From Tepidiphilus sp. J10 (lineage in GTDB: Bacteria > Pseudomonadota > Gammaproteobacteria > Burkholderiales > Thiobacillaceae): DNA of 42,940 nucleotides. The translations under genes were made by a program, and so were the position numbers. The notes under the pieces are model-generated. The model was not told where the DNA came from, ran no database searches, and worked only from the letters and a program-made list of their open reading frames with translations. This document shows, one piece after another, positions 15,147 through 34,204 of this stretch. Location: assembly GCA_945897865.1 (NCBI GenBank), contig CAMDHJ010000013.1:1-42940 (forward strand), in the 5' to 3' direction. Numbering within the stretch: position 1 is the first letter of the stretch; each line of letters begins with the position of its first letter.

Positions 15147-16769
15147 TCAGACCCGGAAACCCGCGACCAATTCGTTCAACTGCCCGGCCAGGCTGGAAAC
15201 CTTGCCCGCGTTTTGACTGGTTTGCCGGCTGGCGCTGGAGTTGGTTTCGGTCATTTGCGCAATTTGCTCGACGCGCACGGCGACGTCTTTGGCGGTAGCG
15301 CTCTGCTCACGCAAGGCAAGATGGATTTCATTCACCGATTGCACCACATCGCTGGCCCGCTGTTCGATCTGGCCGATCGATTCGCCGGCACGACGCGCCA
15401 GTTCTTCGCCCTGATTGGCGCGCTCAACATCGGCCTGCATCGCCTGCATGGTGCGTTCAGTGCCGGTCTGAATGCGCTGGATCATGTCGCCAATCTGTTT
15501 CGTCGATGACGATGTCCGCTCCGCCAGTTTGCGAACTTCATCCGCCACCACCGCGAACCCGCGCCCCTGCTCGCCGGCCCGCGCCGCCTCGATAGCGGCA
15601 TTCAACGCCAACAAATTGGTCTGGTCGGCAATTTCCTTGATCACATTGACGATGCTGGTAATTTCCGAGGTCAAGCCACCCAACTCCGCAACGATGCCAG
15701 AAGACAATCGCGCACCTTCGGCGATCGCCTGCATCTCACGCGCAGCGTTCATCGTCACATCGCGCCCCTCGCGCGAGGATTCCCCTGAAAGCACGGCCAG
15801 ATCATGCGACGCCGTCGCGTGTTCGCGCACCTGGTCGATCGAAACGGAAAGCAGTTCCATCGACGCCGCCATGCCCGAAGCGGATTCCGCCTGCTGGTGG
15901 CTGGCGCCGGCCACATCGGCGCTGGCGCCGGCCAATTCGCCCGACATCTGTTCCAGCGAATGCGCGCCATCGCGCACTTGGCTGACCACCTCGCGCAGAT
16001 GATCCTGCATGGAGGAAAGGCTCTTCAGCAGATCGCTGATCTCGTCACGACCAGAAACCACAATCGACTGCGTCAGATCAAAGCCCGCTACCGCCTCAAC
16101 CGTGTTTCTGGCTGCCAACAACTGTTTGCACAAACGACTCTGCAACATCCAGATCGTCGTGCCGACCAGCACGAAAACCACGCCAAACAACACAGCCACA
16201 GCCCAGATCATGCGACGGGCTGCTTGATTAGCCGTTTCAAAAGAAGCCGCCGCAACGCTCTGGTAATAAGGCATGAACTGCTCCATCGGCTTCACTACGC
16301 TGCCATGCACCAGTGGCCAATCGTCTTCCAGAATACTTTTCACCAAATCCAGATCGTCAGTCTGATATGCGGTCATCAGGCGCTCCATCAGCGCATTCAA
16401 CCCAACCATCCCCTTATCGATCTTGTCCAGCAAGGCCTTTTCCGCTTCTGGCAGCATCTGCGTCGCGGCGATACTTCGAAAACGCGCCCACTCTTCCGGT
16501 AACGCGGCTTGCGATTCTTTCAAATGATTGGCCGAACCAACGGTCGGCAACTGTTCCAGGGCCACGCCGGCAATCCGAAAGCGAACTTCCTTCAGGCGGC
16601 GCTCTACGGATTGCAAAGTCGTCAGCGGCACCACCGCCTGATCGTTCACCTCGCTCAACATACTCGCCCCGCTGCGCGAGGCCTGAATTGCCATACTGCC
16701 CAAGGCCAGGAGAGATATCAGAGTGACCGCCGCCAACAAAATCAGCAGGCCGCGCAACGTGTGGATCAT
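15147..16769 (-). CDS. Methyl-accepting chemotaxis protein
   Basis: This 540-residue chemoreceptor has membrane helices at about 7-27 and 187-209. They flank a periplasmic, probably four-helix-bundle, sensing domain. A HAMP linker ([20 protein letters not shown], then [19 protein letters not shown]) precedes the signalling domain. The hairpin tip that binds CheA/CheW is [43 protein letters not shown]. No C-terminal NWETF-like CheR tether is present. The gene starts 44 bp after the exported rhodanese on the same strand, so the two may share a transcript. A sulfur-related or redox ligand is conceivable but unproven. Confidence 0.93.
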
Positions 16770-16813
16770 TTTTATCTCTCCTTTGTTATTTATATGAATC
16801 GGATGAAAAGTAC

Positions 16814-17263
16814 TTATTCGGTGGGAAATCCTTTGCTTTCCCAGGCAGGCAGACCGTCACGGAACCAATTCACCTGCTTGTATCCCGCCTTGATCGCCGC
16901 ATCCGCACCTTTGTAACCACGCCAGCACGGCGAACCGTTGCAGTAGAACACCAGCGCCTTGCTCTTGTCGGCAGGCAGTTTGCTCATGTCAACTGAATCC
17001 TTGGGATCGAGTTTGGCGACCTTCTTGTGGATTTCCTTGTAGACCACGCTGATCGCACCCTTGATATGTTTCTCGGCGTACTCGGCGGCAACGCGGGAAT
17101 CAACAAAAACCGCGCCCTTATCGAACAGGGCCTTGGCCTGAACCGCATTGACCATTTTGCCGCCTGGAATGGCTTGCGGCGTTTCCTCGACGGCGAAAAC
17201 CTGGCCGCTGGCAAAGCTCAAAGATCCAGCAAAAACGAGTGATAAAAAAGTACGGGCAAGCAT
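16814..17263 (-). CDS. Exported rhodanese-like protein
   Basis: This 149-residue single-domain rhodanese has a signal peptide ([20 protein letters not shown], cleavage near QVFA), so it acts in the periplasm. The domain contains [18 protein letters not shown] and the active-site region [16 protein letters not shown], with candidate catalytic C108 and a second C113, and ends [17 protein letters not shown]. Such proteins transfer sulfane sulfur or act in thiol redox. The ATG at 17263 follows AAAGGAGACACCC, a near-perfect SD; upstream in-frame ATG and longer starts are less good. A 9-bp hairpin lies just upstream. The chemoreceptor gene follows it. Confidence 0.9.
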
Positions 17264-17287
17264 GGGTGTCTCCTTTGGGGTCATATA

Positions 17288-17309
17288 GGTTTCCTCGCGA
17301 GAGGAAACC
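17288..17309 (-). promoter_or_regulatory. Perfect hairpin in the rhodanese leader
   Basis: GGTTTCCTC and GAGGAAACC form a perfect 9-bp stem around GCGA, ending 25 nt before the rhodanese ATG. In the mRNA it would sit just above the ribosome binding site. On the other strand it is followed only by CCTTTTC, a weak terminator at best. The role is unknown. Confidence 0.5.
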
Positions 17310-17449
17310 CCTTTTCGACACCTCAACGGGAAACTTTAGCAAACAGCTCAAGGCAAGCCGAAAGCAGACCAGCAATCAGCGGGTTACGCACCGTCTTGTA
17401 ACTGCTCAATAACTCACGGCAAGCGTCTCGGTGCGGTCGCCAGCTGGGC

Positions 17450-17547
17450 GTAGGTTGGGTTAGCCGACGTCTTTTTGTCGGCGTAACCCAACATGGCCGT
17501 GGTGAAGTCGGGATACGGCGCAAAAAGACGCGCCTAACCCGACCTAC
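17450..17547. repeat. REP-like composite inverted repeat
   Basis: GTAGGTTGGGTTAGCCGACG, an internal hairpin (GCCGAC/GTCGGC around a T-rich loop), and GGGTTA/TAACCC arms end in the complement GACCTAC. This GTAGGTTGGGTTAG-type element recurs in many proteobacterial genomes. It occupies most of the 317-bp gap between the rhodanese and hyfI. The rest of that gap, 17310-17449, shows nothing I can name. It probably acts as a terminator-like structure behind hyfI. Confidence 0.75.
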
Positions 17548-17580
17548 AAGTTCACTGTGCCGACGTGACTTATTGAGTAA

Positions 17581-18117
17581 TTACGCCATCTTCGATTGGC
17601 TGACTGCCGCCAGAATGCCTTGCAACAACGCGGTCGGCGTCGGTGGGCAGCCCGGCACTTCGACATCGACCGGGATGACGCTGGATATCTTGCCGCAGGT
17701 GGCGTAGTTCTCGCCGAACATCGCGCCAATATCGCCGCAACCGCAGCCGCAATCGCCCATCGCCACCACCCATTTCGGTTCCGGTGTCGCGTCGTAAGTC
17801 CGCTTCAACGCGGTTTCCAGATTGCGGGTGACCGGGCCGGTGACCAGCAGCACATCGACATGACGCGGGCTGGCGGCGAATTTCACGCCGATGCCTTCGA
17901 TGTTGTAGTGCGGTCCACCCAGCGCATGGATTTCCAGTTCGCAACCGTTGCAGGAGCCGGCATCGACGTGGCGGATGCTGACCGCCTGACCGAACACTTT
18001 CAGGATGTCGGCGTGCAGTTCCTGCTCCCGCAGGCGCAGCGAAAGATCGGCTTCCGGTGCGGGTTCCGAGACGATGCCGGTATTGAAGATTTTCTTGAGT
18101 ATGAGGTGGGTAGCCAT
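17581..18117 (-). CDS. hyfI: Ehr/hydrogenase-4-like small subunit (HyfI/NuoB family)
   Basis: This 178-residue membrane-associated Fe-S subunit would carry the proximal [4Fe-4S] cluster next to the large subunit. Family motifs are GSCNGCELEIHALGGPHYN (C56, C59), MGDCGCGCGDIG (C123 area) and VEVPGCPPTPTALLQG (C157). The separated CxxC is the hydrogenase type, as opposed to the adjacent CC of NuoB. All four cluster cysteines are therefore kept even though the partner large subunit has no nickel site. It is the last gene of the operon, about 96 bp after hyfG, separated by an unusual repeat. Electron input and acceptor are unknown. Confidence 0.9.
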   Translation of the reverse strand: MATHLILKKIFNTGIVSEPAPEADLSLRLREQELHADILKVFGQAVSIRHVDAGSCNGCELEIHALGGPHYNIEGIGVKFAASPRHVDVLLVTGPVTRNLETALKRTYDATPEPKWVVAMGDCGCGCGDIGAMFGENYATCGKISSVIPVDVEVPGCPPTPTALLQGILAAVSQSKMA

Positions 18118-18118
18118 G

Positions 18119-18207
18119 TGGGGTGAAGGGTAAAGGGTGAAGGGTGAAGGGTGAAGGGTAGGTGCGCAGGGGGGTTTACCCTTCCCCCTTCACCCTTCCC
18201 CCTTCAC
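18119..18207. repeat. GGGTGAA-type tandem units facing inverted copies
   Basis: From 18119 to 18160 several GGGTGAA or GGGTAAA units run in tandem. From 18177 to 18207 the complementary order TTTACCC, TTCCCCC, TTCACCC and so on is found. The arms could fold into a long imperfect hairpin in the transcript between hyfG and hyfI. The tract is non-coding. Confidence 0.85.
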
Positions 18208-18213
18208 AAATTG

Positions 18214-19743
18214 TCATAAATCCTGTCCGCTATACGAAAGATTGAACGATTTGTTGATCAGCGGGAAATCCGGAACGATGTTGCCGATGATGCCGATTTC
18301 CAGCAGCGGCCAGTTCTGCCAGGACGGGTCATGCGCATGCACGCGATCCAAACGGCCATCTGCGCCGATGCGAAGCGCGACGATCACCGGTCCACGCCAG
18401 GATTCGACCCAAGCGATGCCTTCAACGCCACCCGCTACCGGCGCCAGATCGTTATGCAAAGCGCCGGACGGTATCTGGCGCACGATCTCGCGGATCAGGC
18501 GCAGCGATTCATACACTTCGGCGAAGCGCACTTCGGAACGCGCAAACACATCGCCCTTGCGATGCGTCGCCATGTTCACTTCCAGCTTGTCATATGGCGC
18601 TTGCGGGAACTGCGCACGCACATCCCAGGCCTGGCCGCTGGCACGACCGGGCAGGCCGGTCAGGCCGAGGCGGGCGGCAAGTTCGGGCTTGCAGGTGCCG
18701 GTGTTGGCGAAACGATCCTGCAACACCGCCTGCTCGTCGTAGATCGCTTTCAGGCTTTGCACTTCCGCTTCCAGCCGGTCGGTCTCGGCCTGCAAAGCGG
18801 CGCTGTCGGTCAGATCGACGCTGACGCCGCCGGGCACGATGCGGTCGAACAGATATCGGTGGCCGAACAGACGTGCAGTCAAACGCAGCCAGTCCTCCTT
18901 CAAACGCCAGAACTGCATGAAGCCGAACGCCAGGGCAACGTCGTTGCCGAGATAACCCAGGTCACCCAGATGATTGGCGATGCGTTCGATCTCCAGGAAC
19001 AACGCGCGCAGCCATTCGGCACGCGGCGGCACCGTGCTGCCAGTAGCCGTTTCCACCGCCGAACAATAGGCCCAGGCATAGGCGCTGTGCGCGTCGCCGG
19101 AGATACGGCCGGCCAGGCGCGCGCCGGTGTTCAGGTCCATGCCTTCAAAGCGCTTTTCGCTGCCCTTGTGCGTGTAGCCCAGACGTTGCTCCAGACGCAG
19201 AACACGGTCGCCGATGATCGAGAAGCGAAAATGCCCCGGCTCAATGGTGCCGGCGTGGATCGGGCCGACCGGAATTTCGTGTACACCGTCGCCTTCGACC
19301 TGGATGAACGGATAGGCGTCGAGTTCGCGCACTGGTGCGCTGACAAAATCCTTGCGCAGCGGATAGGTATCGGCCGCCCAGGCGCCATGGCGCAGCCATT
19401 TGCGTTCATCCACCGCACCGTCTGCCTTGATGCCGAGCAGATCGAAAGTAGCGCGCTGCATGCGGTCGGCTTGCGGGAATATCTGCGCCAGATCGGGATA
19501 GGACGGCGCTTCGGCGGCCAGCGCGGCGCTGACCCAGGCCAAACCGGCGGCGGCATGAAAGGCGACATGTATCGCATAACCCGAGTTCAGATGCCGATCA
19601 TCCGATCCCCACAGTGCCTGCAACTGACCGCCCTCTTCCTTCACCGCATGCGCCAACGCCAGCAGTTGGCCGATTTCCATCTGGCCGCGCCAGATATGCG
19701 GCGCGATCAGGTTCAGGTTCCACTCTTGTGCATTGATCTGCAT
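18214..19743 (-). CDS. hyfG: Ehr-type large subunit (HyfG/NuoCD-like) lacking NiFe-binding cysteines
   Basis: This 509-residue protein combines a short NuoC-like N-terminal region with a NuoD/hydrogenase-large-subunit domain (about 150 onward: VGPIHAGTIEPGHFRFSIIGD, RLGYTHKGSEKRFEG). In true group 4 hydrogenases the motifs RxCGxC and DPCxxC bind nickel and iron. Here the first reads RISGDAHS (residues 213-220) and the second HDPSWQNWPLLE near the C-terminus. All four metal ligands are absent and no maturation genes are nearby. The protein therefore belongs with energy-converting hydrogenase-related (Ehr) complexes and cannot be a hydrogenase. Whether it binds quinone, a proton path or another cofactor is unknown. 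The gene starts one base after the hyfF stop. Confidence 0.9.
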   Translation of the reverse strand: MQINAQEWNLNLIAPHIWRGQMEIGQLLALAHAVKEEGGQLQALWGSDDRHLNSGYAIHVAFHAAAGLAWVSAALAAEAPSYPDLAQIFPQADRMQRATFDLLGIKADGAVDERKWLRHGAWAADTYPLRKDFVSAPVRELDAYPFIQVEGDGVHEIPVGPIHAGTIEPGHFRFSIIGDRVLRLEQRLGYTHKGSEKRFEGMDLNTGARLAGRISGDAHSAYAWAYCSAVETATGSTVPPRAEWLRALFLEIERIANHLGDLGYLGNDVALAFGFMQFWRLKEDWLRLTARLFGHRYLFDRIVPGGVSVDLTDSAALQAETDRLEAEVQSLKAIYDEQAVLQDRFANTGTCKPELAARLGLTGLPGRASGQAWDVRAQFPQAPYDKLEVNMATHRKGDVFARSEVRFAEVYESLRLIREIVRQIPSGALHNDLAPVAGGVEGIAWVESWRGPVIVALRIGADGRLDRVHAHDPSWQNWPLLEIGIIGNIVPDFPLINKSFNLSYSGQDL

Positions 19744-19744
19744 C

Positions 19745-21211
19745 TCAGCCTCCCAGCAATGCCGCAGCCTGGCGATACCACATGGCCAGATAGGGCGGGA
19801 TGAACAGGCCCAGCATCAGCACCAGTCCCAGGTGGATGAACACCGGCGTCAACGCCGGCTGATACGGCAACTTGGCCAATGGCGTCTCGCCGAACACCAT
19901 CGGCTGCACCTTGCCGAAGATCGACGCGAACGCGACGCCCAGCGCGATCAACAGGAACGGCGTCGCCCACGGATGTTCGTGCATCGCGGTGGTGATGATC
20001 AGGAATTCGCTGGCGAAGACGCCGAACGGCGGCACCCCGAGAATCGCCACGGTGCCCAGCATCAAGCCCCAGCCGATGGTCGGGTTGGTTTTGATCAGGC
20101 CACGGATGCCGTCCATCATTTGCGTGCCGGCGCTCTGCGTAGCGTGGCCGACAGCGAAGAAGATCGCCGACTTGGTCAGCGAATGCATGGTCATGTGCAG
20201 CAGGCCGGCGAAGTTGGCGACCGGACCGCCCATGCCGAAAGCGAAGGTGATCAGACCCATGTGTTCAATCGACGAGTAGGCAAACATCCGTTTCACATCG
20301 GTCTGGCGCTTGATCAGGAAAGCCGCCAGTACGACGCTGAACAGGCCGAAGCCCATCATCAGGTTGCCGGCCATGCTGTTGTCAACCTCGTTTCCCAATG
20401 CGCCATCAACCAGCACCTTGGAACGCATCACCGCGTACAGCGCCACGTTCAGCAAAAGACCTGAGAGCACGGCGGAAACCGGCGTCGGGCCTTCGGCATG
20501 GGCGTCGGGCAGCCAGCTGTGCAACGGCGCCAGACCGACCTTGGTGCCGTAACCGACCAGAAGGAAGACGAAGGCCAGTTGCAGCACCGTCGGCTCCAGT
20601 TCCGCCTTGACGCCGTTCAGATGGGTCCACAACAGCGCCGTGCCGCCGGAACCAAGAATCTTCTCCGCCGCGAAATAAAGCAGGATGGTGCCGAACAGCG
20701 CCAGCGCGATGCCGACGCCGCACAGGATGAAGTACTTCCAGGCCGCTTCCAGCGCCGCCGGGGTGCGGTACAAGGAAACCAGCAACACCGTCGCCAGCGT
20801 CGCAGCTTCCATCGACACCCACAGAATGCCCATGTTGTTGGTGGTCAGCGCCAGCAGCATGGCGCCAATGAAGATCTGATAGCTGGAATGGTAAAGGCGC
20901 AGACGCTTGGCGTTGAGGCGACCATGTTCCTCTTCGATGCGCATGTAGGGCCGTGAGAACAGCGAGGTAGTGAACGCAACGAAGGCGGTCAACGCGACCA
21001 GAAACACGTTGAACGAGTCGATGAAGAACCAGCCTTCGCCGCCAGTCAGCATCGGCCCGTCCGCGACGATGCGCGCGGTCAGCCAGGCCGCAGCCAGCAG
21101 AGTAAGAAAGCTGAACAGCGCGTTGACTTCCGGCGCCGAGCGGCTATTGCCCCAGAACGCCAGAACGATGCCGCCCAGAAGCGGGATACCAAGTAGCCAG
21201 TAGATTTCCAT
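19745..21211 (-). CDS. hyfF: Antiporter-like membrane subunit (HyfF/NuoN-M-like)
   Basis: This 488-residue polytopic subunit has about 14 hydrophobic segments and belongs to the Mrp-antiporter/complex I ion-translocating family. The signature region GYGTKVGLAPLHSWLPDAHAEGPTPVSAVLSGLL (about 240-275) carries the conserved lysine and discontinuous helix. KRMFAYSSIEHMG and FGVFASEFLIITTAM follow. It probably moves protons or sodium in the membrane arm. It lies 29 bp after hyfE and abuts hyfG. Confidence 0.92.
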   Translation of the reverse strand: MEIYWLLGIPLLGGIVLAFWGNSRSAPEVNALFSFLTLLAAAWLTARIVADGPMLTGGEGWFFIDSFNVFLVALTAFVAFTTSLFSRPYMRIEEEHGRLNAKRLRLYHSSYQIFIGAMLLALTTNNMGILWVSMEAATLATVLLVSLYRTPAALEAAWKYFILCGVGIALALFGTILLYFAAEKILGSGGTALLWTHLNGVKAELEPTVLQLAFVFLLVGYGTKVGLAPLHSWLPDAHAEGPTPVSAVLSGLLLNVALYAVMRSKVLVDGALGNEVDNSMAGNLMMGFGLFSVVLAAFLIKRQTDVKRMFAYSSIEHMGLITFAFGMGGPVANFAGLLHMTMHSLTKSAIFFAVGHATQSAGTQMMDGIRGLIKTNPTIGWGLMLGTVAILGVPPFGVFASEFLIITTAMHEHPWATPFLLIALGVAFASIFGKVQPMVFGETPLAKLPYQPALTPVFIHLGLVLMLGLFIPPYLAMWYRQAAALLGG

Positions 21212-21240
21212 GAAACGATTTTTCCTTTATCGATCTTTTT

Positions 21241-21903
21241 TTATCGCTCTTTCAGCTTTTCCATGTGTTTCAGATCGAGCGAGTCGAACGTCTCGCGAAT
21301 CTGGAAGAAGAAGATGCCCAGCACGAAGACGCCGATCAGCACATCCAGCGCGACGCCAAGCTCGACCACCAGCGGCATGCCGTAGGTCGCACTGGTGGCG
21401 GCGAAGAAGAGGCCGTTTTCCATCGCCAGGAAACCAATCACCTGCGGGATCGCATTTCGCCGCGTGATCATCATCAGGAACGCCAGCAGCACGCAGGCCA
21501 TCGCAATCCCCAACGTCGAGCGCATCACGGTGCCGGACAGCTCTGATATCGGCAAAGCCAGGTTGAAGGAGAAGATCACCAGTGCGATGCCGATCAGCAT
21601 CGTGGTCGGGATGTTGATCATCGGTTCAACGTCACGGTCCACATCCAACTTCTTCACCAGCCGGTAGAAGAACCAGGGCATCGCAATCACTTTCAAAGCC
21701 AGGGTCAGCGCAGCCGAGTAATACAAATGGTGCTGGTCGGTGGACCAGGCGACGATGGCGGTGGACAGCGACAGCGCCGCACCCTGCCAGGCGAACAGCG
21801 TCACCAGACCGACGATGCGGCGCTGCGACAGCATCGCGAACGAGATCAACAGCAGCAACGCGGCGAGCAGATTGACGACTTGCAGGTGGTAGGTGAGGCT
21901 CAT
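21241..21903 (-). CDS. hyfE: HyfE-like (NuoK-related) membrane subunit
   Basis: This 220-residue protein has about six to seven membrane helices. The first half includes LLLISFAMLSQRRIVGLVTLFAWQGAALS. The second half has GFLAMENGLFFAATSATYGMPLVVELGVALDVLIGVFVLGIFFF, which includes the conserved acidic residues of the NuoK/MrpC/HyfE family involved in ion translocation. The SD (CGGAGACTGAG ATG) is good. A REP-like doublet separates it from hyfC upstream. Confidence 0.92.
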   Translation of the reverse strand: MSLTYHLQVVNLLAALLLLISFAMLSQRRIVGLVTLFAWQGAALSLSTAIVAWSTDQHHLYYSAALTLALKVIAMPWFFYRLVKKLDVDRDVEPMINIPTTMLIGIALVIFSFNLALPISELSGTVMRSTLGIAMACVLLAFLMMITRRNAIPQVIGFLAMENGLFFAATSATYGMPLVVELGVALDVLIGVFVLGIFFFQIRETFDSLDLKHMEKLKER

Positions 21904-21914
21904 CTCAGTCTCCG

Positions 21915-21967
21915 GTAGGGTGCGCCATGCGCACCGCAGGTGAATGTGTGCGCATGGCGCACCCTAC
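21915..21967. repeat. REP-like doublet between hyfC and hyfE
   Basis: GTAGGGTGCGCCATGCGCACC and its complement GGTGCGCATGGCGCACCCTAC-type arm face each other around about 14 bp. The same element recurs at 22938-22991, so hyfC is bracketed by two copies. It may act as an mRNA stability or attenuation hairpin. Confidence 0.88.
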
Positions 21968-21981
21968 GCATGCGGTCCATC

Positions 21982-22926
21982 TCAGACCTCCAGCAAAAAA
22001 TGAATCAGCATGCCGAGCACCGCCAACAGAAATGCGGTACCGAGATATTCCGGCACCCGGAACAGACGCAGCTTGGCGCTGATGGCTTCCATGAACGCCA
22101 GCAGGAATCCACCGCCTGCCATCTTGGCGAACAGCGCCAGCACCGCCAGCGGCAACGCGCCCCAATCACCCGCCGCTGCAATGCCCCAGGGCAGGAACAG
22201 CGCGATGCCGAGCGCGGAGTAAGTAAACAGCTTGAGTGCTACCGCCCATTCGATCAGCGCCAGATGGCGCGCCGAATATTCCAGGATCATCGCCTCATGG
22301 ATCATCGTCAGTTCCAGGTGGGTGGTCGGGTTGTCCACCGGAATGCGGGCGTTTTCCGCCACCGAGATCATCCAGAACGCCACCGCCGCGAAGGCCAGGC
22401 TGGGATAGATCGCGAACTCGCTGTGCGCCAGGGTTTCGACGATGTGCGGCAACTCGGTCGATTGCGAGATCAGGCTGGCGGTGAAGAACACCATCAGCAA
22501 CGCCGGTTCGGCGAGGAAGGCGACCAGCATTTCGCGGCGCGCGCCTAGGGTGCCGAACGACGTGCCGATGTCCATCGCCGCCAGCGCCAGAAACACCCGC
22601 GCCAGCGCAAACACGCCGACCAGCGCGATGGCGTCGGCTGCGGGCGAGAACGGCAGGTCGTTGACGATCATGGGCACGATGCCGGCGGCCAGCGCCATGC
22701 AGGCGAAGATCATGTAGGGCGCGAAGCGGAACAAGGGTGAAGCGTTGTGCGCAATCACCGCATCCTTGTGAAACAGCTTGCGGATGCTGCGATACGGCTG
22801 GGTGATCGGTGGCGCGCCACGCCCTTGCAGCCAGGCGCGACATTGATTGACCCAGCCCAGCAGCAACGGCGCCAGCAGGATGGCGAGCAGAGTCTGGGCG
22901 ATTTGCAAAAGGATGCCGGCGGTCAT
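21982..22926 (-). CDS. hyfC: HyfC-like (NuoH-related) membrane subunit
   Basis: This 314-residue polytopic subunit connects the peripheral Fe-S arm to the ion-pumping membrane arm. Family signatures are PYRSIRKLFHKDAV, FAPYMIFACMALAAG, GTSFGTLGARREMLVAFLAEPALL, and the NuoH-type VAENARIPVDNPTTHLELTMIHEAMILEYSARHLALIEW. The ATG at 22926 is chosen. A GTG three codons upstream is also possible, and the frame stays open into the REP element. No SD is visible because the REP doublet lies only about 11 bp upstream of the ATG. Translation initiation here may therefore be weak or coupled. Confidence 0.92.
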   Translation of the reverse strand: MTAGILLQIAQTLLAILLAPLLLGWVNQCRAWLQGRGAPPITQPYRSIRKLFHKDAVIAHNASPLFRFAPYMIFACMALAAGIVPMIVNDLPFSPAADAIALVGVFALARVFLALAAMDIGTSFGTLGARREMLVAFLAEPALLMVFFTASLISQSTELPHIVETLAHSEFAIYPSLAFAAVAFWMISVAENARIPVDNPTTHLELTMIHEAMILEYSARHLALIEWAVALKLFTYSALGIALFLPWGIAAAGDWGALPLAVLALFAKMAGGGFLLAFMEAISAKLRLFRVPEYLGTAFLLAVLGMLIHFLLEV

Positions 22927-22937
22927 GGTTTGCACTC

Positions 22938-22991
22938 GTAGGGTGCGCCATGCGCACCGCTCCAGTTGATGGTGCGCATGGCGCACCCTAC
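22938..22991. repeat. REP-like doublet between hyfB and hyfC
   Basis: This is a second copy of the GTAGGGTGCGCCATGCGCACC doublet found at 21915-21967, in a slightly different spacer version. It ends about 11 bp before the hyfC start codon and appears to have displaced the expected ribosome binding region. Confidence 0.88.
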
Positions 22992-23025
22992 GAAAATGGC
23001 GTTGTTTCGCATGAAGGTCACCGTG

Positions 23026-25032
23026 TCACAAAACAAGCAGGAAGATCAGCGTGGCAAAGCTGTAGATCAGATACCACTGGATGCGGCCATGCTGAAGACG
23101 GCCGGCCTGGTCTGAAATCCAGCCGGCAAGTCGTGCGATGGGCAGATAGACGATGAACCAGATCTTATCGAGTGAGGCGCTGGTGTGGCGCGGATGCCGA
23201 TCGAACGGATCCGGCTCCTCCCTTTCCACCCGCATGAACATTTCAAAAATATGCCGGATCGGTTGACCGAAGCCTTCGGCGGTGTCCTGCATGCGCGAGG
23301 TCTGCTCCGGGTAACCGCAATCCCACGCATCGGCACGCCGCACGCGACCGTGATAAATCCGACGCACCCAAATGAATACCAACAACACCGTCACCAACAG
23401 CACGCCGAAAAAGATCAACGGCGCATAGCTGGCCCTTGCCGCATCGACCGGCGCCAACAGTATCCAATTGCCATCATTGATCAGGGTCTGACCGGTCAAT
23501 AGTTGAACCACCGGCGCCATCCAGCCGATGACCTGGGTCGGGAACAGACCGAGCAGGACGCAACCTGCAGCCAGCCAGATCATGCCCAGGCGTTCCGGCC
23601 AACTGGCTTCATGTGCGTGATTCAACTTGGCATCGCGCGGCTGGCCGAGGAACACCACGCCGAAAAACTTGACCATCACATAAGCGGCCAGCGCGGCAGC
23701 CAGCGCCACCGAGGCGGCGGCGACCGGAATCACCATATTCAGATACGGCTGGTTGAGACCGGGCGTAAGCAGGAAGGCTTGCAACAGCAGCCATTCCGAA
23801 ACGAAGCCGTTCAGCGGCGGCAAGCCGGCAATCGCCAGCGCGCCGATCAGCGTCAGCCAGGCGGTCCACGGCATGAAGCGCATCAGGCCGCCCAGATGCC
23901 CCATGTGACGCGAGCCGGTGGCGTGCAGCACGGAGCCGGTGCCGATGAACAGCAGCCCCTTGAAGAAGGCATGGTTGAGCGCGTGATACAGCAGCGCGGT
24001 CATGGTCAGCGCAGCCAACGCACCCTTGCCGTCGGTGTAGAAAATCAGCGTCAGGCCGAAGGCGGCGACGATGACACCGATGTTTTCGATGGATGACCAA
24101 GCCAGCAGGCGTTTCATGTCCGACTGCACGGCGGCAAAGATGACGCCGTACAGCGCGGTCAGCAGGCCCAGCGTCAGCGCCAGCGTACCCCACCAGCCCT
24201 GCTGCACGTTGAGCAGATCGAAGGTGACACGCAGCAAACCGTAGATCGCGGTCTTCAGCATGACGCCGGACATCAGCGCCGATACCGGCGACGGTGCCGC
24301 CGGGTGGGCTTCCGGCAGCCAGACATGCAGCGGCACCAGACCGGCTTTGGCGCCAAAACCGAACAGCGCGAGCAGGAACACCACCGAACCCCAGAATGGG
24401 GTCATTTCGGCAAGCCTCATGCTGGCGAAGGTGAAATCGCCGGAAGCTTCCAGACCACCACCCTGCAACACGCCAAAGCAGAGCAACAGGGCGATCGCGC
24501 CGACGTGGGCGATCAACAGGTAGAGAAAACCGGCGCGGCGGATATCGGGAATGTCGTGATCAGTGGTGACCAGGAAATACGATGACAGCGCCATGACTTC
24601 CCAGGCCACCATGAACGCATAGGCATCGTCGGCCAACAGCACCAGGGTCATGCCAGCCAGGAACAGGTGATACCAGAACGCCAGCAAGGCCAGCGAACCG
24701 CGTTCCATGTCCTTGAAATAGCCGATCGAATACACCGTCACGCCGAACGCCGAGCCGCCAAGCAAGACCAGGAAGAACGCCGACAGCGCATCCAGGCGCA
24801 AGTGGAAGGGCAGATCAGGCAGGCCGATCGGCAGCACGATGGCGGATGCCGGGTCGATCAAGCCGATGACCCCGACGCCAGCCAGACACAGCGCCGCCAG
24901 TGCGCCGAGGGGGAAGATCAAACCGCGCAGACGCGGCGTCTGTTGCGTGAACAGGCTGGAAAAACCCAGGGCAAGCCAGAACAGCACGATCCCCCAGGCA
25001 AGTTGCACAGGAAGGATGACGGGCTCGAACAT
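23026..25032 (-). CDS. hyfB: Antiporter-like membrane subunit (HyfB/NuoL-like)
   Basis: This 668-residue polytopic protein has about 16 membrane segments. The ion-translocating core shows GFGAKAGLVPLHVWLPEAHPAAPSPVSALMSG and KRLLAWSSIENIGVIVAAFGL. The lateral C-terminal region has RRADAWDCGYPEQTSRMQDTAEGFGQPIRHIF, typical of HyfB. In complex I-like machines this subunit is a proton or sodium pump module. It begins 3 bp after the carbonic anhydrase stop, so the two are almost certainly one transcript and probably translationally coupled. Confidence 0.93.
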   Translation of the reverse strand: MFEPVILPVQLAWGIVLFWLALGFSSLFTQQTPRLRGLIFPLGALAALCLAGVGVIGLIDPASAIVLPIGLPDLPFHLRLDALSAFFLVLLGGSAFGVTVYSIGYFKDMERGSLALLAFWYHLFLAGMTLVLLADDAYAFMVAWEVMALSSYFLVTTDHDIPDIRRAGFLYLLIAHVGAIALLLCFGVLQGGGLEASGDFTFASMRLAEMTPFWGSVVFLLALFGFGAKAGLVPLHVWLPEAHPAAPSPVSALMSGVMLKTAIYGLLRVTFDLLNVQQGWWGTLALTLGLLTALYGVIFAAVQSDMKRLLAWSSIENIGVIVAAFGLTLIFYTDGKGALAALTMTALLYHALNHAFFKGLLFIGTGSVLHATGSRHMGHLGGLMRFMPWTAWLTLIGALAIAGLPPLNGFVSEWLLLQAFLLTPGLNQPYLNMVIPVAAASVALAAALAAYVMVKFFGVVFLGQPRDAKLNHAHEASWPERLGMIWLAAGCVLLGLFPTQVIGWMAPVVQLLTGQTLINDGNWILLAPVDAARASYAPLIFFGVLLVTVLLVFIWVRRIYHGRVRRADAWDCGYPEQTSRMQDTAEGFGQPIRHIFEMFMRVEREEPDPFDRHPRHTSASLDKIWFIVYLPIARLAGWISDQAGRLQHGRIQWYLIYSFATLIFLLVL

Positions 25033-25035
25033 GGC

Positions 25036-25596
25036 TCAGAACTCGTTGCGAATCCGCTTGTAACCTCTGACCAGTTCGTTGTTGGCCTGCGCCACGCTTT
25101 CCGAGAATCCGGCCTGATCCAGTGTCACCGGCTCGATTTTGGCCAGTTCGGCGTCGGAATGGATGTTGGTGGTGGACGGAATATAAAAGCCGGGCGGCAC
25201 CGAACAGCCTTCGACCACGGCATTGTGGCGCACCACCGAACCATCGCCGACAGTGCAGTTGTAGAGCACCGAATTGAATCCGATGAAGACGTTGTCACCA
25301 ACCGTGCATGGCCCATGCACGATGGAACGATGCGCGATCGAAGTGCCCTGGCCGATCACCACGCCGCCGCCCGCCTTGCAGTGGATGACGACTCCATCCT
25401 GGATATTCGAATCGGCGCCGATGACGATCGCCTCCATGTCGCCATTGTCATCAACTTCGTCGGCGCGAATCACCGCGTAGGGTCCGATGAAGACGTTTTC
25501 ATTGACGATGACTTTGCCGCACAGGATCGCGGTGGGGTCGACAAAAGCGGTGTCATGCACCACCGGCAGGTGACCGGAGGGATTTCTACGAATCAT
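25036..25596 (-). CDS. Gamma-class carbonic anhydrase (Cam/CcmM type)
   Basis: This 186-residue left-handed beta-helix protein would interconvert CO2 and bicarbonate. The three zinc ligands correspond to H72 (VVIHC), H89 and H94 (SIAHRSIVHGP). The conserved R44 and Q66 (IRADE, NIQDG) are present. The C-terminal helix region IPSTTNIHSDAELAKIEP through ANNELVRGYKRIR follows the Cam/CcmM pattern rather than that of CaiE/PaaY. The ATG at 25596 has a GGGAG SD that directly abuts the T-run of a terminator. It is the first gene downstream of that terminator and lies 3 bp before hyfB. This pairs an apparently active carbonic anhydrase with an Ehr membrane complex. Confidence 0.9.
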   Translation of the reverse strand: MIRRNPSGHLPVVHDTAFVDPTAILCGKVIVNENVFIGPYAVIRADEVDDNGDMEAIVIGADSNIQDGVVIHCKAGGGVVIGQGTSIAHRSIVHGPCTVGDNVFIGFNSVLYNCTVGDGSVVRHNAVVEGCSVPPGFYIPSTTNIHSDAELAKIEPVTLDQAGFSESVAQANNELVRGYKRIRNEF

Positions 25597-25607
25597 GGCG
25601 TACTCCC

Positions 25608-25640
25608 AAAAAAAAGCCGTGCGAGATTATCCCGCACGGC
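25608..25640 (-). terminator. Rho-independent terminator/attenuator between USP and carbonic anhydrase
   Basis: On the minus strand, GCCGTGCG - GGATAATCT - CGCACGGC is an 8-bp stem followed by TTTTTTTT. It lies within the 65-bp gap between the universal stress protein stop and the carbonic anhydrase start. The T-run merges with GGGAG, the ribosome binding site of the next gene. It should reduce read-through from the TSUP/USP genes into the Ehr genes, or serve as an attenuator. Confidence 0.85.
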
Positions 25641-25661
25641 CTCGTTTGGGAGAGCCTGTCT

Positions 25662-26501
25662 TTACGGCTTGACCACCAATACAGGACAACTCGCTTGGCC
25701 GATCACCCGTTCCGCCACGCTGCCCAGCAGCACTTTGGCCAAACCGGTGCGTCCATGGCTGCCCATGACGATCAGATCAGCGGCGACATCTTCCGCCGCC
25801 TTGACGATCGCTTCATCCGGACGTCCCTCGACAATCTTGCCCTCGACATCGACACCCATCGCCTTCAAGCGCTCGACCTTGCCGGCGACGGCTTGCTCGG
25901 CTTCCTGCCGGCGCGCCTTGCTGTGGCTGCTGGTGACCACTGAAACCACGGTCACCGGCAAACCGGCCTGTTTAGCGAAATGGCCGGCGGTACCCGCGGC
26001 CGCCTCGCTATGCGGCGAGCCGTCGGTGGCCAGCAGAATGCGTTTTTCCCACAGCCGCGCCGCACGCGGGCAGACCAACACGGCGCAATCGGCCTGGCCG
26101 ATCACCTTCACCGTGGCATCGCCCACCATCATGCGCGCCATGCCGCGCTTGCCACGGCGGCCCATGACGATGACATCAGCTTTGGCCTGTTGCGAGCCTT
26201 CGACAATGCCCTGCGCCGGGTCGGACGCTTCCAGGGTCAGCGTCGTCGCCGACTCGCCGGCGGCTTCAATAAAGCCCTGCAACGCCTGGCGCGCGCGCTT
26301 CTCCGCCTCTTCACCCAGATTCGGCACCAGCGTGCTGTATTCCGGGTTGTAGATGGATACCGAAAAACCGGTCAGGCGGGCACCGCGCGCCTGCGCCAGC
26401 GCGAGTCCGGTACGAATGGCGCCGTCCGAATACTCGGAACCGTCGGTGGCGATCATCACGCTGGTCAGCGTGCCCTGTTCGGATAAGGTCTGATTGGTCA
26501 T
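25662..26501 (-). CDS. Tandem-domain universal stress protein
   Basis: This 279-residue cytoplasmic protein has two UspA domains, at about 10-135 and 150-279. Each begins with the nucleotide-pocket aspartate (VMIATDGSEYSD, ILLATDGSPHSE). The second has an intact GxxG-x9-GS ATP-binding motif (GSHGRTGLAKVLLGS). The first is GRRGKRGMARMMVGD, with D in place of S, so its binding may differ. The SD is excellent (AAGGAGGAG) and overlaps the TSUP stop region 16 bp upstream. Its position between the transporter and the carbonic anhydrase suggests an energy- or stress-responsive regulator of the locus (inference). Confidence 0.92.
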   Translation of the reverse strand: MTNQTLSEQGTLTSVMIATDGSEYSDGAIRTGLALAQARGARLTGFSVSIYNPEYSTLVPNLGEEAEKRARQALQGFIEAAGESATTLTLEASDPAQGIVEGSQQAKADVIVMGRRGKRGMARMMVGDATVKVIGQADCAVLVCPRAARLWEKRILLATDGSPHSEAAAGTAGHFAKQAGLPVTVVSVVTSSHSKARRQEAEQAVAGKVERLKAMGVDVEGKIVEGRPDEAIVKAAEDVAADLIVMGSHGRTGLAKVLLGSVAERVIGQASCPVLVVKP

Positions 26502-26517
26502 GGCTGCTCCTCCTTCG

Positions 26518-27597
26518 TTAGTCGGACATCGTGTTACGCGCGCTCACCGCCTGTCTCGCCTTGTGCTCTTTCATGCCCTTGAGCAAGGCGGCAATGACTG
26601 TGTAAGCGCCCAGGAACAACGCCAGGAACAACACGCCATCACCAATCCATTTCAAGATCTGTTGGGTATCGGCGGCCAGCGGCTCCATCATGCCCATTTT
26701 GCCGAGATAGCCCGGAATGTAGAAGAAACGTGAGAACAACACAGTCAGCATGATGACAGCCATAGTGAACTTGACCTGGTAATCCTTCACATAGGTGGTG
26801 CCGATGGCGCCGATCTGAATACCAAACAGAGAACCAAACAGAATCAGCATCGCCATGCGAATGTCCACCGCGCCTTCAAGACCATAGAAGATGGTGCCGC
26901 CCAGGCCCATGACGAAGGCGATTACCAGCTCCGTCGCGGAAGCCATGATCGCCGGCACGCCCAGGATGTAGATCATCGCCGGCACGCCGACGAAGCCGCC
27001 GACGGCGATGGCGGAAGCCAGAAAGCCGGTTGCGAAACCAATGGGCACCAGGAACAGCACGGACAGTTCCGACTTGGCCGCGTGCGAGTAAATCATCGTG
27101 CCGGGGATACGCACCGACTGCACCCACTTCGCCAACTTGGTCAGGCCAACATTGTCCTGCTCCTCGTCGCTCATGTTCTTCAGCTTGCGATAGTCCTTGA
27201 ACACGAAGGTGCCGACGATGGCCAGCGTGATGATGAACATTACAGAGACATAAAGATCAGTACCAACCGCGCCGAAAGCGTGCTTGATATCGGTCATCAC
27301 ATGCTTGCCGAACAGCACACCGGCTTCGGCGAACAGGCCCAGCACCAGGCCCAGTTTCACGTCCACCTGACCGTATTTGTTGCGCTTGACCGCGCCGACC
27401 AGCGCCTTGGGAAATTTATGACAGATGTTGGTCGCCACCGCGACCATGCCGGGTGCGCCGAGCGTCATCATCGCCGGAGTCAGTACAAAAGCGCCGCCAG
27501 AGCCGATGAAGCCGGACACCATGCCGCCAACAAAGCCGACCAGAATCAGAATGATCGAAGTGGTGATATCCAGTTCGATGAAGTTGAAGAGTTCCAT
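26518..27597 (-). CDS. TSUP (TauE/SafE) family membrane transporter
   Basis: This 359-residue transporter has about eight membrane segments in two related halves. The first half has GGMVSGFIGSGGAFVLTPAMMTLGAPG, the second SAIAVGGFVGVPAMIYILGVPA. Both match the TauE/SafE family of anion transporters, which handle sulfite, sulfonates, sulfolactate and other small anions. The substrate is not visible from sequence. A hydrophilic loop (about 130-175) separates the halves. The frame is open for 42 codons upstream, but the ATG at 27597 follows AAGGAAAACAAC and fits the family N-terminus. It lies 10 bp after the small membrane protein gene and 16 bp before the USP gene. Confidence 0.9.
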   Translation of the reverse strand: MELFNFIELDITTSIILILVGFVGGMVSGFIGSGGAFVLTPAMMTLGAPGMVAVATNICHKFPKALVGAVKRNKYGQVDVKLGLVLGLFAEAGVLFGKHVMTDIKHAFGAVGTDLYVSVMFIITLAIVGTFVFKDYRKLKNMSDEEQDNVGLTKLAKWVQSVRIPGTMIYSHAAKSELSVLFLVPIGFATGFLASAIAVGGFVGVPAMIYILGVPAIMASATELVIAFVMGLGGTIFYGLEGAVDIRMAMLILFGSLFGIQIGAIGTTYVKDYQVKFTMAVIMLTVLFSRFFYIPGYLGKMGMMEPLAADTQQILKWIGDGVLFLALFLGAYTVIAALLKGMKEHKARQAVSARNTMSD

Positions 27598-27607
27598 GTT
27601 GTTTTCC

Positions 27608-27934
27608 TTATTTCTTAGCTTTGAGGCCGACCACGTCCCAGAACAGGCCCGTGAAAATGCCGTGCGTGTAGGACAGCGCGAAAGCCATCGCGATTGGCGC
27701 GAAGACGTACCACCAGATGCCATCCATCATCGAGCCCGCCTTTTCTGCGCACAGTTCAGGCGTTGCCATGTTGTAGTAATCGACGCCTGAACCCGTCTGC
27801 ACGACACAGGCATCCACCGTGGTATGGGCCAACCGCACGAATTCGTCGGCGTAAATGAACAGGAACGCGTAGAGGGCAGCGGTCATCGCCCCCCAAAACA
27901 CGGTCTTGCCCAGACTGCTGCTATTGCTGCTCAT
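27608..27934 (-). CDS. Small membrane protein of unknown family, partner of TSUP transporter
   Basis: This 108-residue protein starts MSSNSSSLGKTVFWGAM and has probable membrane helices at about 12-30 and 75-100. Between them is a polar loop with two cysteines (VDACVVQTGSG, TPELCAEKAGS) that could form a periplasmic disulfide. I do not recognise the family. The ATG at 27934 follows CTTGGAGTACATC. An upstream in-frame ATG at 27946 lies before that SD and is rejected. It ends 10 bp before the TSUP gene, suggesting a transporter accessory subunit (inference). Confidence 0.75.
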   Translation of the reverse strand: MSSNSSSLGKTVFWGAMTAALYAFLFIYADEFVRLAHTTVDACVVQTGSGVDYYNMATPELCAEKAGSMMDGIWWYVFAPIAMAFALSYTHGIFTGLFWDVVGLKAKK

Positions 27935-27981
27935 GATGTACTCCAAGAAAACGCGTCGGGTCGGCGACCTTCGGCAAGGGT

Positions 27982-28003
27982 AAAAAAGGGGACAAATTTA
28001 TTT
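27982..28003. repeat. AAAAAAGGGGACAAATTTATTT intergenic motif
   Basis: This A-rich GGGGACA-AATTTATT stretch resembles end sequences that I associate with RAYT/IS200-like element remnants. Only one copy is seen here. It lies between the USP-like and small membrane protein genes and could also simply be leader sequence. Confidence 0.3.
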
Positions 28004-28026
28004 CGGTTATCGGGCCGGCTATGGAC

Positions 28027-28401
28027 TTAAAGCTCCTGCGGCAAATCCGGATGGTCTGACGCCGCCACCAACGGACATTCCAGCTTGCTCCAGGGATCGA
28101 CGTGACCCTCGCCGGCCCAGGCTGCGGGACGGCCAACAACGACTGAAGTGACACATTCGTGACGGCGCGCGTGTTCAACCACATGTTTGGCATCCAACCC
28201 AGGGGCGGGCGTCAGTCGGCAATCGACGCCGTCCTTTTCCAACGCGGCCAGGCGCGCTTCAATCTCGGCCCAGTCCGGCCGCATCGGGTCGGCCAGCACT
28301 TCCAGCTCAGCCTCCATGCGCCGACACAGCGCGGCGCCCACTTTAAACAGGCGCTCCACCGGCGAGACCGGACGCAGGGCGACGACGATGCGGCGTTTCA
28401 T
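28027..28401 (-). CDS. Divergent UspA-like protein
   Basis: This 124-residue cytoplasmic protein begins MKRRIVVALRPVSPVERLFKVGAALCRRMEAELEVL. That matches the first beta strand and helix of a UspA fold, and it ends SVVVGRPAAWAGEGH with KLECPLVAASDHP. The pocket residues are altered: no DGS after the first strand and no GxxG-x9-GS. It probably does not bind ATP in the usual way. It is the first gene after the predicted sigma-54 promoter and heads the run that continues through TSUP, USP, carbonic anhydrase and the Ehr genes. No clear SD precedes the ATG at 28401. Confidence 0.72.
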   Translation of the reverse strand: MKRRIVVALRPVSPVERLFKVGAALCRRMEAELEVLADPMRPDWAEIEARLAALEKDGVDCRLTPAPGLDAKHVVEHARRHECVTSVVVGRPAAWAGEGHVDPWSKLECPLVAASDHPDLPQEL

Positions 28402-28446
28402 GGAGTTGGACTAGGCAATGGCACTTAAAGAATCGGCTAAGGCATT

Positions 28447-28463
28447 AGCAGCAAACATGCCAA
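28447..28463 (-). promoter_or_regulatory. Predicted sigma-54 promoter
   Basis: On the minus strand, TTGGCATGTTTGCTGCT matches the -24/-12 consensus (TGGCACG-N4-TTGCW) with the invariant GG-N10-GC spacing. Transcription would start near 28436, about 35 nt before the USP-like gene. It lies between that gene and a divergently transcribed sigma-54 activator gene, which supports it. Confidence 0.7.
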
Positions 28464-28561
28464 TCGAAAAATTCTGCTAACACACTGAAATTACGACTAT
28501 GTGACTCAAAGCCTGTTCATCAAACCGTTTCAGATTGCAACACCGCTGTTACACTTTGCCC

Positions 28562-29548
28562 ATGCAGCCCGACAAATCAACCGACAACACAAAACTCCAC
28601 AGCCATCGTGTCATCACCCGCGATGGCGATATGCAGAAGCTTCTGGAAATGGCGCGTCAAGTGGCCCCAACCGGTTGCAACGTGCTGATTACCGGCGAAT
28701 CCGGCACCGGCAAGGAATTGTTCGCACGCTGTCTGCACGACCACGACGGCCGCCGGGTTGACCACAATGGCGGCCCTTTTCTGGCGGTCAACTGCGGCGC
28801 ATTCAACGAGGAACTGCTGGCCAACGAACTGTTCGGCCATGAAAAGGGCGCGTTCACCGGCGCCATCGGCAAAACCGGCCTGCTGGTCGCCGCCGATGGC
28901 GGTACCTTGTTCCTCGACGAAGTCACCGAAATGTCATCCGCCATGCAGGTCAAATTGCTGCGCGCCATCCAGGAAAAGGAGGCGCTACCGATAGGCGGCA
29001 CCAGACCGGTGAAAGTCGATGTCCGCTTCATCGCCGCCAGCAACCGCAACATGAAAGACTGGGTCGCCGAAGGACGCTTTCGGCAAGACCTCTACTACCG
29101 CCTGAACGTCGTCAACCTGCACATCCCGCCGCTGTCTGCCCGGCGCGAGGATATTCCGCTTCTCGCCCAGCACTTCCTTGACCGCGCCGCGCCGGTCATG
29201 GGCAAGTCGGTTGTTGCAATTTCCGAAGACGCGCTTGCCCTGCTCAAAGCCTACGACTTCCCCGGCAACGTGCGCGAACTGGAAAACATCATCGAACGCG
29301 GCGTCGCGATCTGCCAGGGCGACACCTTGGAAGCCACCCACCTGCCCGACGATCTGCGTGACCTTTCGATCCGTGCCTTCCGCCGCCGCGACGGCCGCGT
29401 AGTTCCTCTGGAAGAACACGAGCGCAACTACATTCTCTGGGTGCTGGAAGAAGCCCATGGCAACCAGACCCTGGCCGCCCAGATGCTGGGTATCGACAGG
29501 GTGTCGTTGTGGCGGAAGTTGAAGAAGTATGGCGAGGAGAAGGGGTGA
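28562..29548 (+). CDS. Sigma-54-dependent transcriptional activator without receiver domain
   Basis: This 328-residue bacterial enhancer-binding protein has a Walker A GESGTGKE at about 45-52 and the sigma-54-contacting loop GAFTGA at 96-101. Walker B is GGTLFLDEV, followed by FRQDLYYRLNVVNLHIPPL and the arginine-finger region. A Fis-type helix-turn-helix lies at the C-terminus (GNQTLAAQMLGIDRVSLWRKLKKYG). The N-terminus is only about 18 residues, with no receiver, GAF or PAS domain, so activity must be controlled in trans, as for PspF or HrpR/S. I chose the ATG at 28562; a TTG at 28535 is an alternative. Its divergent placement next to a predicted sigma-54 promoter suggests it activates the 28.4-17.6 kb operon. 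Confidence 0.92.
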   Translation: MQPDKSTDNTKLHSHRVITRDGDMQKLLEMARQVAPTGCNVLITGESGTGKELFARCLHDHDGRRVDHNGGPFLAVNCGAFNEELLANELFGHEKGAFTGAIGKTGLLVAADGGTLFLDEVTEMSSAMQVKLLRAIQEKEALPIGGTRPVKVDVRFIAASNRNMKDWVAEGRFRQDLYYRLNVVNLHIPPLSARREDIPLLAQHFLDRAAPVMGKSVVAISEDALALLKAYDFPGNVRELENIIERGVAICQGDTLEATHLPDDLRDLSIRAFRRRDGRVVPLEEHERNYILWVLEEAHGNQTLAAQMLGIDRVSLWRKLKKYGEEKG

Positions 29549-31614: not shown

Positions 31615-31994
31615 CTACGGATTCAATCCAACAAAGTGCAACAAAACGGAATACGCAATTTTCCCTGATTTGGGTAATGACACGGGGGTTAAACCCAGGT
31701 TAAACGATGCAAATTCCAGAAGCGGCATGAGCGAAGGCTGGATTGTCGGTTGAAAACGGTACGCCTTCGTAACGCCTCAGGTGACTATTGAAACCCCCAT
31801 CATTCCCGCAAAAGAGAGAATCACGGACGAGGTGAGCTGAATCGTTACACCAAGCCATTGCCGGCCTCTACGAACGATTGGGCGAAGCACGGAAAGCCAA
31901 ACCAGCCAGGCTTCAGGATCGATCAATAATGCAACCTTGCCGCGATAGAATCGCGGCTTGCATTATTTCTTCCCATCCAACCTTCCTGGAAAAC
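31615..31994. other. Intergenic region between divergent MFS and gspG genes
   Basis: It carries the promoter-like hairpin at 31925-31967 near the gspG end. The rest is lower-GC DNA with no convincing reading frame. I looked for a c-di-GMP riboswitch and found no adequate match. Confidence 0.5.
31925..31967 (+). promoter_or_regulatory. Candidate gspG promoter inside a long hairpin
   Basis: AATAATGCAA/TTGCATTATT and GCCGCGA/TCGCGGC form nested arms around TAGAA. The TAGAAT at 31946-31951 is a good -10 hexamer, a style common in Betaproteobacteria. The -35 match (TCAATA at 17-bp spacing) is weak. The gspG start is 44 bp downstream. The palindrome could be an operator overlapping the promoter. 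Confidence 0.5.
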
Positions 31995-32435: not shown

Positions 32436-32448
32436 GTTTGATTGACGG

Positions 32449-34190: not shown

Positions 34191-34204
34191 GGGTATGCGT
34201 TGGT

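Follow-up and report, generated by a model that had tools for sequence, protein, structure and literature searches.

The window analyzed here is a 42,940-nucleotide stretch of DNA from Tepidiphilus sp. J10 that corresponds to contig C13, one of 247 in an 86% complete, 3.9-Mb draft genome, and it contains a predicted gamma-class carbonic anhydrase (CA) gene lying directly ahead of hyfBCEFGI, a gene set for a complex of the Ehr type. On the (-) strand, the genes run in the order c8, c17, a TauE-family permease gene, usp2, the gamma-CA gene, hyfB, hyfC, hyfE, hyfF, hyfG, hyfI and a rhodanese-like gene. Genes were called with our own codon-score caller, whose start positions are approximate (calling by longest open reading frame [ORF] produced spurious antisense genes and was discarded), and they were labeled by BLAST against a small reference set built for this analysis.

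The CA gene (25036..25596, (-) strand) encodes a Cam/CcmM-like protein of 186 aa, as judged from its ORF, Pfam and NCBIfam matches and alignment with PDB chains, and its stop codon is separated from the start codon of hyfB by 3 bp (TGA-GCC-ATG). The top NCBIfam models were CcmM (124.9 bits, cut-off 550) and Cam (116.2 bits, cut-off 380); because both scores fall well under the equivalog cut-offs, the predicted protein is a relative, not an equivalog, of CcmM or Cam. H72, H89 and H94 align with histidines of Cam-type PDB chains, and R44, D46, E47, N64 and Q66 are also matched in those alignments; we take the histidines to be the Cam zinc ligands H81, H117 and H122, and the other matched positions to be Cam catalytic residues. 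None of these positions varies among the CAs of the family (81/81), an alignment set obtained from 83 CA genes by removing two calls of less than 150 aa. The 83 genes were themselves left from 86 after L167_2711, L170_15950 and L187_7440 were dropped because in the CA tree they were reached across branches measuring 4-6 changes per site. Hexapeptide repeats, indicative of a left-handed beta-helix, are predicted from the sequence (Pfam Hexapep, 68.3 bits), and inspection by eye revealed no signal peptide. The stretch between H72 and H89, which in Cam is the site of the acidic loop, is shorter than in Cam in the PDB alignment. This loop carries the proton-shuttle glutamate of Cam, and CcmM also lacks an acidic loop; the short stretch would speak against the window protein being Cam itself, not against its being a gamma-CA. 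The protein is likely an active, cytoplasmic enzyme.

The six hyf genes, all on the (-) strand, are predicted from their ORFs together with domain matches, NCBIfam (hyfE) or alignments (hyfG and hyfI). They encode an antiporter-like subunit of the NuoL/Mrp type (hyfB, 23026..25032, 668 aa), a NuoH-like membrane subunit (hyfC, 21982..22926, ~314 aa from the caller's start, with a longer GTG ORF that reaches 22986 across a repeat as an alternative), a hydrogenase-4 membrane subunit (hyfE, 21241..21903, 220 aa), a second antiporter-like subunit (hyfF, 19745..21211, 488 aa), a large subunit of the NuoC-NuoD/HycE type (hyfG, 18214..19743) and a small subunit of the NuoB type (hyfI, 17581..18117). 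The best alignment of HyfG is with HycE of formate hydrogenlyase (7z0s), and in it both CxxC pairs that hold the NiFe site are lost, RVCGIC being replaced by RISGDA and DPCYSC by NLSYSG. Among 114 HyfG proteins (440-620 aa as called, taken from the window and from both the named and the class-level loci), no complete NiFe CxxC pair was found and four contain a single cysteine in the first pair. Residues 471-509 are the most conserved of nine HyfG segments compared (mean 0.86 across the same 114), and the altered, well-conserved former NiFe pocket is likely a functional centre. HyfI retains C56, C59, C123 and C157, the four cysteines expected to hold an iron-sulfur cluster, which are present in 104 of 104 sequences. 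In HyfB, E145 and K229 are conserved in at least 95% of 90 sequences, and residues of this type form part of the proton path in complex I. A Pfam scan covering ten proteins of the window, with the rest of the genome not searched, gave no match to a ferredoxin-type or CupA-like family. Hyf and formate hydrogenlyase include the ferredoxin-type subunits HyfA and HyfH. The loss of the NiFe cysteines sets the predicted product of the hyf genes apart from group 4 [NiFe] hydrogenases; as a gene set, hyfBCEFGI fits the published description of Ehr. A preliminary description of this DNA had claimed a Cam/CcmM-type CA with all zinc histidines 3 bp ahead of hyfB, with which the ORFs, the junction and the alignments agree, and a nickel-free Hyf module, which the HycE alignment and the HyfG survey bear out. 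It had also called the CA "fused by operon" to Ehr; the link is one of operon adjacency, and no gene fusion is present.

Palindromic repeats (GTAGGGTGCGCCATGCGCACC) lie within the operon at 21915-21967, between hyfC and hyfE, and at 22938-22991, between hyfB and hyfC. The same sequence occurs genome-wide at 93 sites with two or fewer mismatches, and a reversed control gave 0 sites; the intra-operon copies are REP-like elements.

The genes preceding hyfB were compared at 80 loci of named genomes (L043-L122), the best among 568 Ehr relatives, which overlap the numbered genomes used below, such that the two sets of counts are non-independent. The 31 closest loci (L043-L073) are of the Thiobacillaceae type; at the 23 of these that are readable upstream, hyfB is preceded by SulP (15), CA (7) or another gene (1). 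The 49 remoter loci (L074-L122) include 39 that are readable, where the preceding gene is a same-strand SulP in 10 cases, metG in 8, dnaE in 3 and another gene in 18, the last group including one SulP on the opposite strand and one MarR gene preceded by CA. We then placed these neighbors on a FastTree phylogeny of HyfG (114 rows), 89 rows of which could be labeled by whether SulP or CA lies up to three genes upstream (yes for 36, no for 53). This label switches eight times or more, and five of the changes are forced by well-supported branches. The association with SulP or CA looks as if it had been gained or lost repeatedly in some lineages and not like a trait of all Ehr complexes.

Two further kinds of gene recur near Ehr. 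A gene of 351-365 aa that lies beside hyfI or cbbO (L043, L045, L048, L147 and others) weakly matches carboxysome-shell carbonic anhydrase: with PF20686 it scores 26.9 bits for L043 (cut-off 21.5) and gives no match for L147, and with TIGR02701 it scores 36-37 bits for both, under the cut-off. Small regulator-like proteins are encoded near hyfB at L065, L067, L068, L070, L128-L130 and L160, and at L140, L143, L145, L151, L152, L159, L161 and L162; they are ribbon-helix-helix-like (61-68 aa) or XRE-like (~62-98 aa).

Across the 117 genomes of the family, CA is present in 75 and Ehr in 49 (matches above 500 bits, tallied by hand from the match listing), with CA in 41 of the 49 Ehr genomes and in 34 of the 68 others (Fisher p 0.0002; all Fisher p values given here ignore relatedness among genomes, and draft genomes may miss genes). 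Beyond the family, CA was found in 5 of 369 class genomes, the window's included, one copy having an internal stop and another being a weak match. The direct neighbor of CA is SulP at 52 of the 83 CA genes, and SulP, Ehr, cbb or DAB genes lie within two genes of it at 72. The next gene after CA is SulP in 26 cases, hyfB in 15 and CbbO in three; the hyfB count skips opposite-strand unlabeled ORFs of less than 105 aa and is nine without skipping, and CbbQ and CbbO labels distant from RuBisCO could be NorQ and NorD. Three loci have CA flanked by cbbQ and cbbO, and one more has it behind cbbQ at a contig end; these four CAs form one side of a CA-tree branch with support of 98. One of the 15 CA-hyfB loci, L221, has a broken CA frame (60 aa called) and a divergent Ehr (HyfG 48% identical), is preceded by c17-TauE-usp2, and has intact CA copies elsewhere. 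The preliminary description had named synteny limited to this strain as a refutation of its idea and strict synteny as support; what we found is neither, hyfB following CA at 15 of 83 CA genes in the family and no more, one of them broken. Because few CA genes adjoin hyfB and the neighbors elsewhere are SulP, cbb or DAB genes, the gamma-CA seems to be a partner that can be exchanged and not a fixed subunit.

These counts bear on whether the CA has anything to do with Ehr. The 3-bp junction could be a local rearrangement amid many CA and transporter genes, with the gamma-CA functionally unrelated to the complex, and the low number of CA genes followed by hyfB would be expected if this were so. 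So would the gaps of 21-513 bp at the seven named loci that have CA directly 5' of hyfB, and the 24 changes among five context labels over the 84 rows of the CA tree (three rows later dropped). Such independence does not account for the co-occurrence of CA and Ehr in genomes of the family, nor for CA lying near Ehr also in Sulfuricella (L074) and Gallionellaceae (L079) loci, and we regard it as unlikely.

The strongest evidence for a role of this Ehr branch comes from its distribution relative to DAB. In the window's genus (g1, 23 genomes), Ehr is present in 13 genomes, DabA in six and both in none (p 0.002); in the family, Ehr is present in 49 of the 117, DabA in 41 and both in 10 (p 0.006). 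In g1, each of the six DabA loci carries a SulP gene (707-715 aa) directly 5' of DabB-DabA. Directly before this SulP lies c8 at L037, L225 and L226, and NtrC is upstream at four of the loci, with a histidine kinase (HK) at L037, L222 and L226 and without one at L225; L223 has neither c8 nor NtrC, and the contig of L224 ends at SulP. At L023 and L034, which also belong to g1, c8-SulP is followed by hyfB. L216, from another genus, has the order SulP-usp2-CA-DabB-DabB-DabA, and L051 contains a single run, SulP-CA-hyfBCEFGI-DabB-DabA, in which DabA scores 820 bits. The exchange of Ehr and DAB at one place argues that Ehr here serves uptake of inorganic carbon (Ci), and the two RuBisCO large-subunit genes of the window genome also speak for it. 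Based on gene context, we therefore consider it probable, by a narrow measure, that the CA and hyfBCEFGI are part of an energy-coupled Ci uptake cluster. In such a cluster, the membrane arm would favor the accumulation of Ci by drawing either on ion flow, the mechanism proposed for DAB2, or on electrons passing through the single cluster, as they do in cyanobacterial NDH-1MS. The gamma-CA of the window would convert CO2 to bicarbonate on the complex or close to it, and where SulP replaces CA, the complex would energize or regulate anion transport.

L051 is the only locus seen with a SulP-CA-Ehr-DAB run, and its hyfB is in two pieces of 147 and 526 aa. Two DAB arrangements occur in the family (L222-L239): one is SulP-DabB-DabA with antiporter-like genes behind it, the other a series of genes for proteins of ~559 aa, 247 aa, ~1040 aa (DabA) and 108 aa that is often near cbb genes.

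Several observations weigh against a role in Ci uptake. Ten family genomes hold both Ehr and DabA, and DabA (PF10070) was not found in the window genome, which is 86% complete. Within g1, CA is not significantly more frequent in genomes that have Ehr (9 of 13) than in the others (4 of 10; p 0.22). At the window locus, no SulP adjoins CA-Ehr, the two SulP genes of the genome lying elsewhere, and gene adjacency alone is no demonstration of a physical CA-Ehr complex. The window genome gave no match to a carboxysome shell protein, which leaves a carboxysome-based mechanism unsupported. Among class genomes, RuBisCO (E<=1e-60, tallied by hand from the match listing) is present in 22 of 43 with Ehr and in 151 of 325 without it (Fisher p 0.63), and the correlation of Ehr with autotrophy that the preliminary description had proposed to look for was not seen at this level; a test within the family has little power because 107 of its 117 genomes carry RuBisCO. 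Of the 43 class-level Ehr genomes besides the window's, 37 were fetched, and in none of the 27 that are readable upstream of hyfB is SulP or CA its direct neighbor, with a Ci-type neighbor being nearby at three (CsoSCA-like at L147, SulP-TauE-c17 at L154 and RbcL-CbbQ-CbbO at L162). Two neighbors of remoter loci, u1 and u7, were considered as transporters or DabA and rejected when they were identified as MetG and DnaE, and a general link between Ehr and Ci is weakened accordingly. Because the readable class-level loci lack SulP and CA directly upstream of hyfB, as do most of the remoter ones, Ehr complexes taken together are not Ci devices. The proposal of an energy-coupled CO2/bicarbonate device made in the preliminary description thus stands in part: the SulP, cbb and DAB context and the non-overlap of Ehr and DabA in g1 favor it, and the strict synteny that it had named as support was not found.

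The same observations are compatible with Ehr being a general redox-driven ion pump, linked to ferredoxin or quinol, whose gradient aids costly autotrophic growth, with CA and SulP co-located through shared regulation at low CO2 or low energy and not coupled to it. In favor of this reading, the antiporter-like subunits conserve their charged residues and the single cysteine set is conserved as well, Ehr adjoins metG or dnaE in many relatives, and there is no link to RuBisCO at the class level. Published passages suspect Ehr of charge translocation (PMC6349859) and give its function as unknown (PMC10284858). A general pump alone, however, does not account for the lack of overlap between Ehr and DabA in g1 or for their shared position behind SulP; it also leaves the repeated changes of the SulP/CA association unexplained, and no electron-input subunit is among the window proteins scanned. 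We consider this alternative somewhat unlikely, and less so than an unrelated CA.

The identity of SulP raises a further alternative. The one Ehr-linked SulP that was tested (L023:10606-12726) has a plant sulfate transporter as its best PDB match (337 bits), scores 94 bits with 6ki1 and reaches 139.6 bits with the BicA model, whose cut-off is 880; the two PDB scores also count against Ci uptake. We take 6ki1 to be BicA, its entry being labeled a sulfate transporter and its chain being shorter. Since the tested SulP is nearer to the plant sulfate transporter than to the BicA structure, SulP and TauE may have a sulfur role. The locus could accordingly handle sulfur oxyanions in sulfur oxidizers, with SulP exporting sulfate, TauE exporting sulfite, Ehr supplying the energy, CA serving pH balance and the rhodanese-like gene lying downstream, and both TauE and the rhodanese are in the window. 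Such a role is at odds with the presence of CA, cbb and DAB genes at the same places and with the four loci at which this CA family lies behind cbbQ, three of them with cbbO on its other side, and DAB is not known to act in sulfur metabolism. We regard it as very unlikely.

If the genes do serve Ci uptake, the system would be conceptually like DAB or NDH-1MS and a member of neither, since no DabA was found in the genome and the operon has no CupA-like or ferredoxin-type match. DAB2 is described as a CO2-hydration complex coupled to proton-motive force and required for CO2 uptake in Halothiobacillus (PMC13144422). Like Ehr with its CA, DAB of a chemolithoautotroph joins a NuoL-like subunit to a carbonic-anhydrase-like partner (PMC13144422), and in relatives it stands behind SulP where others have Ehr, or directly behind hyfI. 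Ehr differs in having NuoB-, NuoCD- and NuoH-like subunits and a cysteine set for a cluster, and its linked CA is a separate gamma-class protein, whereas DabA is beta-like. Cyanobacterial NDH-1MS is likewise a complex-I-like machine linked to CO2 hydration, but it is redox-driven and has its own carbonic anhydrase module (PMC6981117), whereas the window proteins have no ferredoxin-type or CupA-like match. Acidithiobacillus ferrooxidans can2-sulP is predicted to function in bicarbonate uptake, its transcripts falling as CO2 rises, and it resembles the loci described here in that a CA gene adjoins sulP; its CA is of the beta type, and "hyf" and "hydrogenase" have 0 occurrences in the paper that describes it (PMC6458275). 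Plant complex I also associates a homologous gamma-CA with a complex-I-like machine, but Cam-type chains give 102-114 bits with the CA of the window and plant complex I CA chains ~28-43, and CAs of the window type swap between gene contexts. Published passages assign Ehr no function or link it tentatively to formate dehydrogenase (PMC10284858 and PMC6349859), whereas the context here is CA, SulP, cbb and DAB. Among the open-access papers searched, which include few subscription papers or bioRxiv preprints, none was seen to connect Ehr or Hyf with CA, with SulP or with DAB, and a 2024 review of the dissolved inorganic carbon (DIC) toolkit (PMC10880623) contains "hyf," "hydrogenase" and "complex i" 0 times.

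The remaining genes of this run lie, like CA, on the (-) strand. Directly 5' of CA, here and in several relatives, is usp2 (25662..26501), which by its domains encodes a double Usp-domain protein. It is preceded by a gene for a predicted permease of the TSUP/TauE family (26518..27597, ~359 aa from the caller's start), identified from domains and locus maps as a recurrent upstream neighbor of CA. The products of c17 (27608..27934, 108 aa) and c8 (28027..28401, 124 aa) have no Pfam match and were defined from the locus maps. At all 30 places labeled in these maps, c17 is followed by TauE; c8 is followed by SulP at 37 of 46 labeled places and by c17 at nine (the sets overlap in both counts). The TauE-c17 unit (26518-27934) recurs before CA and was also seen near SulP and Ehr in another family (L154). 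Divergent from these genes, on the (+) strand at 28562..29548, is a gene whose domains predict a sigma-54 activator without a receiver domain; in several relatives its position is occupied by NtrC, often together with an HK.

Between usp2 and CA, folding predicts a strong hairpin with a T-run behind it (25613..25643, (-) strand), and none of 200 shuffled sequences folded equally well. In 16 of 22 cases (the window and 21 relatives), the usp2/TauE-CA intergenic region folds more than two standard deviations better than shuffles. The hairpin ahead of CA may be an attenuator or an overlap of promoter and terminator. By eye, TATCAT- or GATAAT-like elements are located next to or within several of these hairpins. 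A sigma-54 promoter pattern matched the window nine times versus 10.3 expected, which is not beyond chance, and a sigma-70 scan of 16700-28700 gave 0 sites versus 3.1 expected in shuffles. Elsewhere in the window are a predicted cobalamin riboswitch (4104-4332, (-) strand, 106 bits) and a run of ORFs (~31878-37674, (+) strand) whose translations resemble products of type II secretion pseudopilin and assembly genes.

The gene-context tie to CA, SulP, RuBisCO genes and DAB provides a concrete, testable role for one branch of the Ehr complexes. As a tentative possibility, one that we place below Ci uptake in general and above each of the alternatives, the complex could be a nickel-free relative of hydrogenases rebuilt for vectorial CO2 hydration or bicarbonate accumulation, with a detachable gamma-CA or SulP, and would then be a third complex-I-derived Ci pump beside NDH-1MS and DAB. 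If this is true, complex-I-type machines were recruited once more for CO2 uptake, in relatives of the sulfur oxidizer Thiobacillus, and the genes described here may encode an undescribed carbon-uptake engine.

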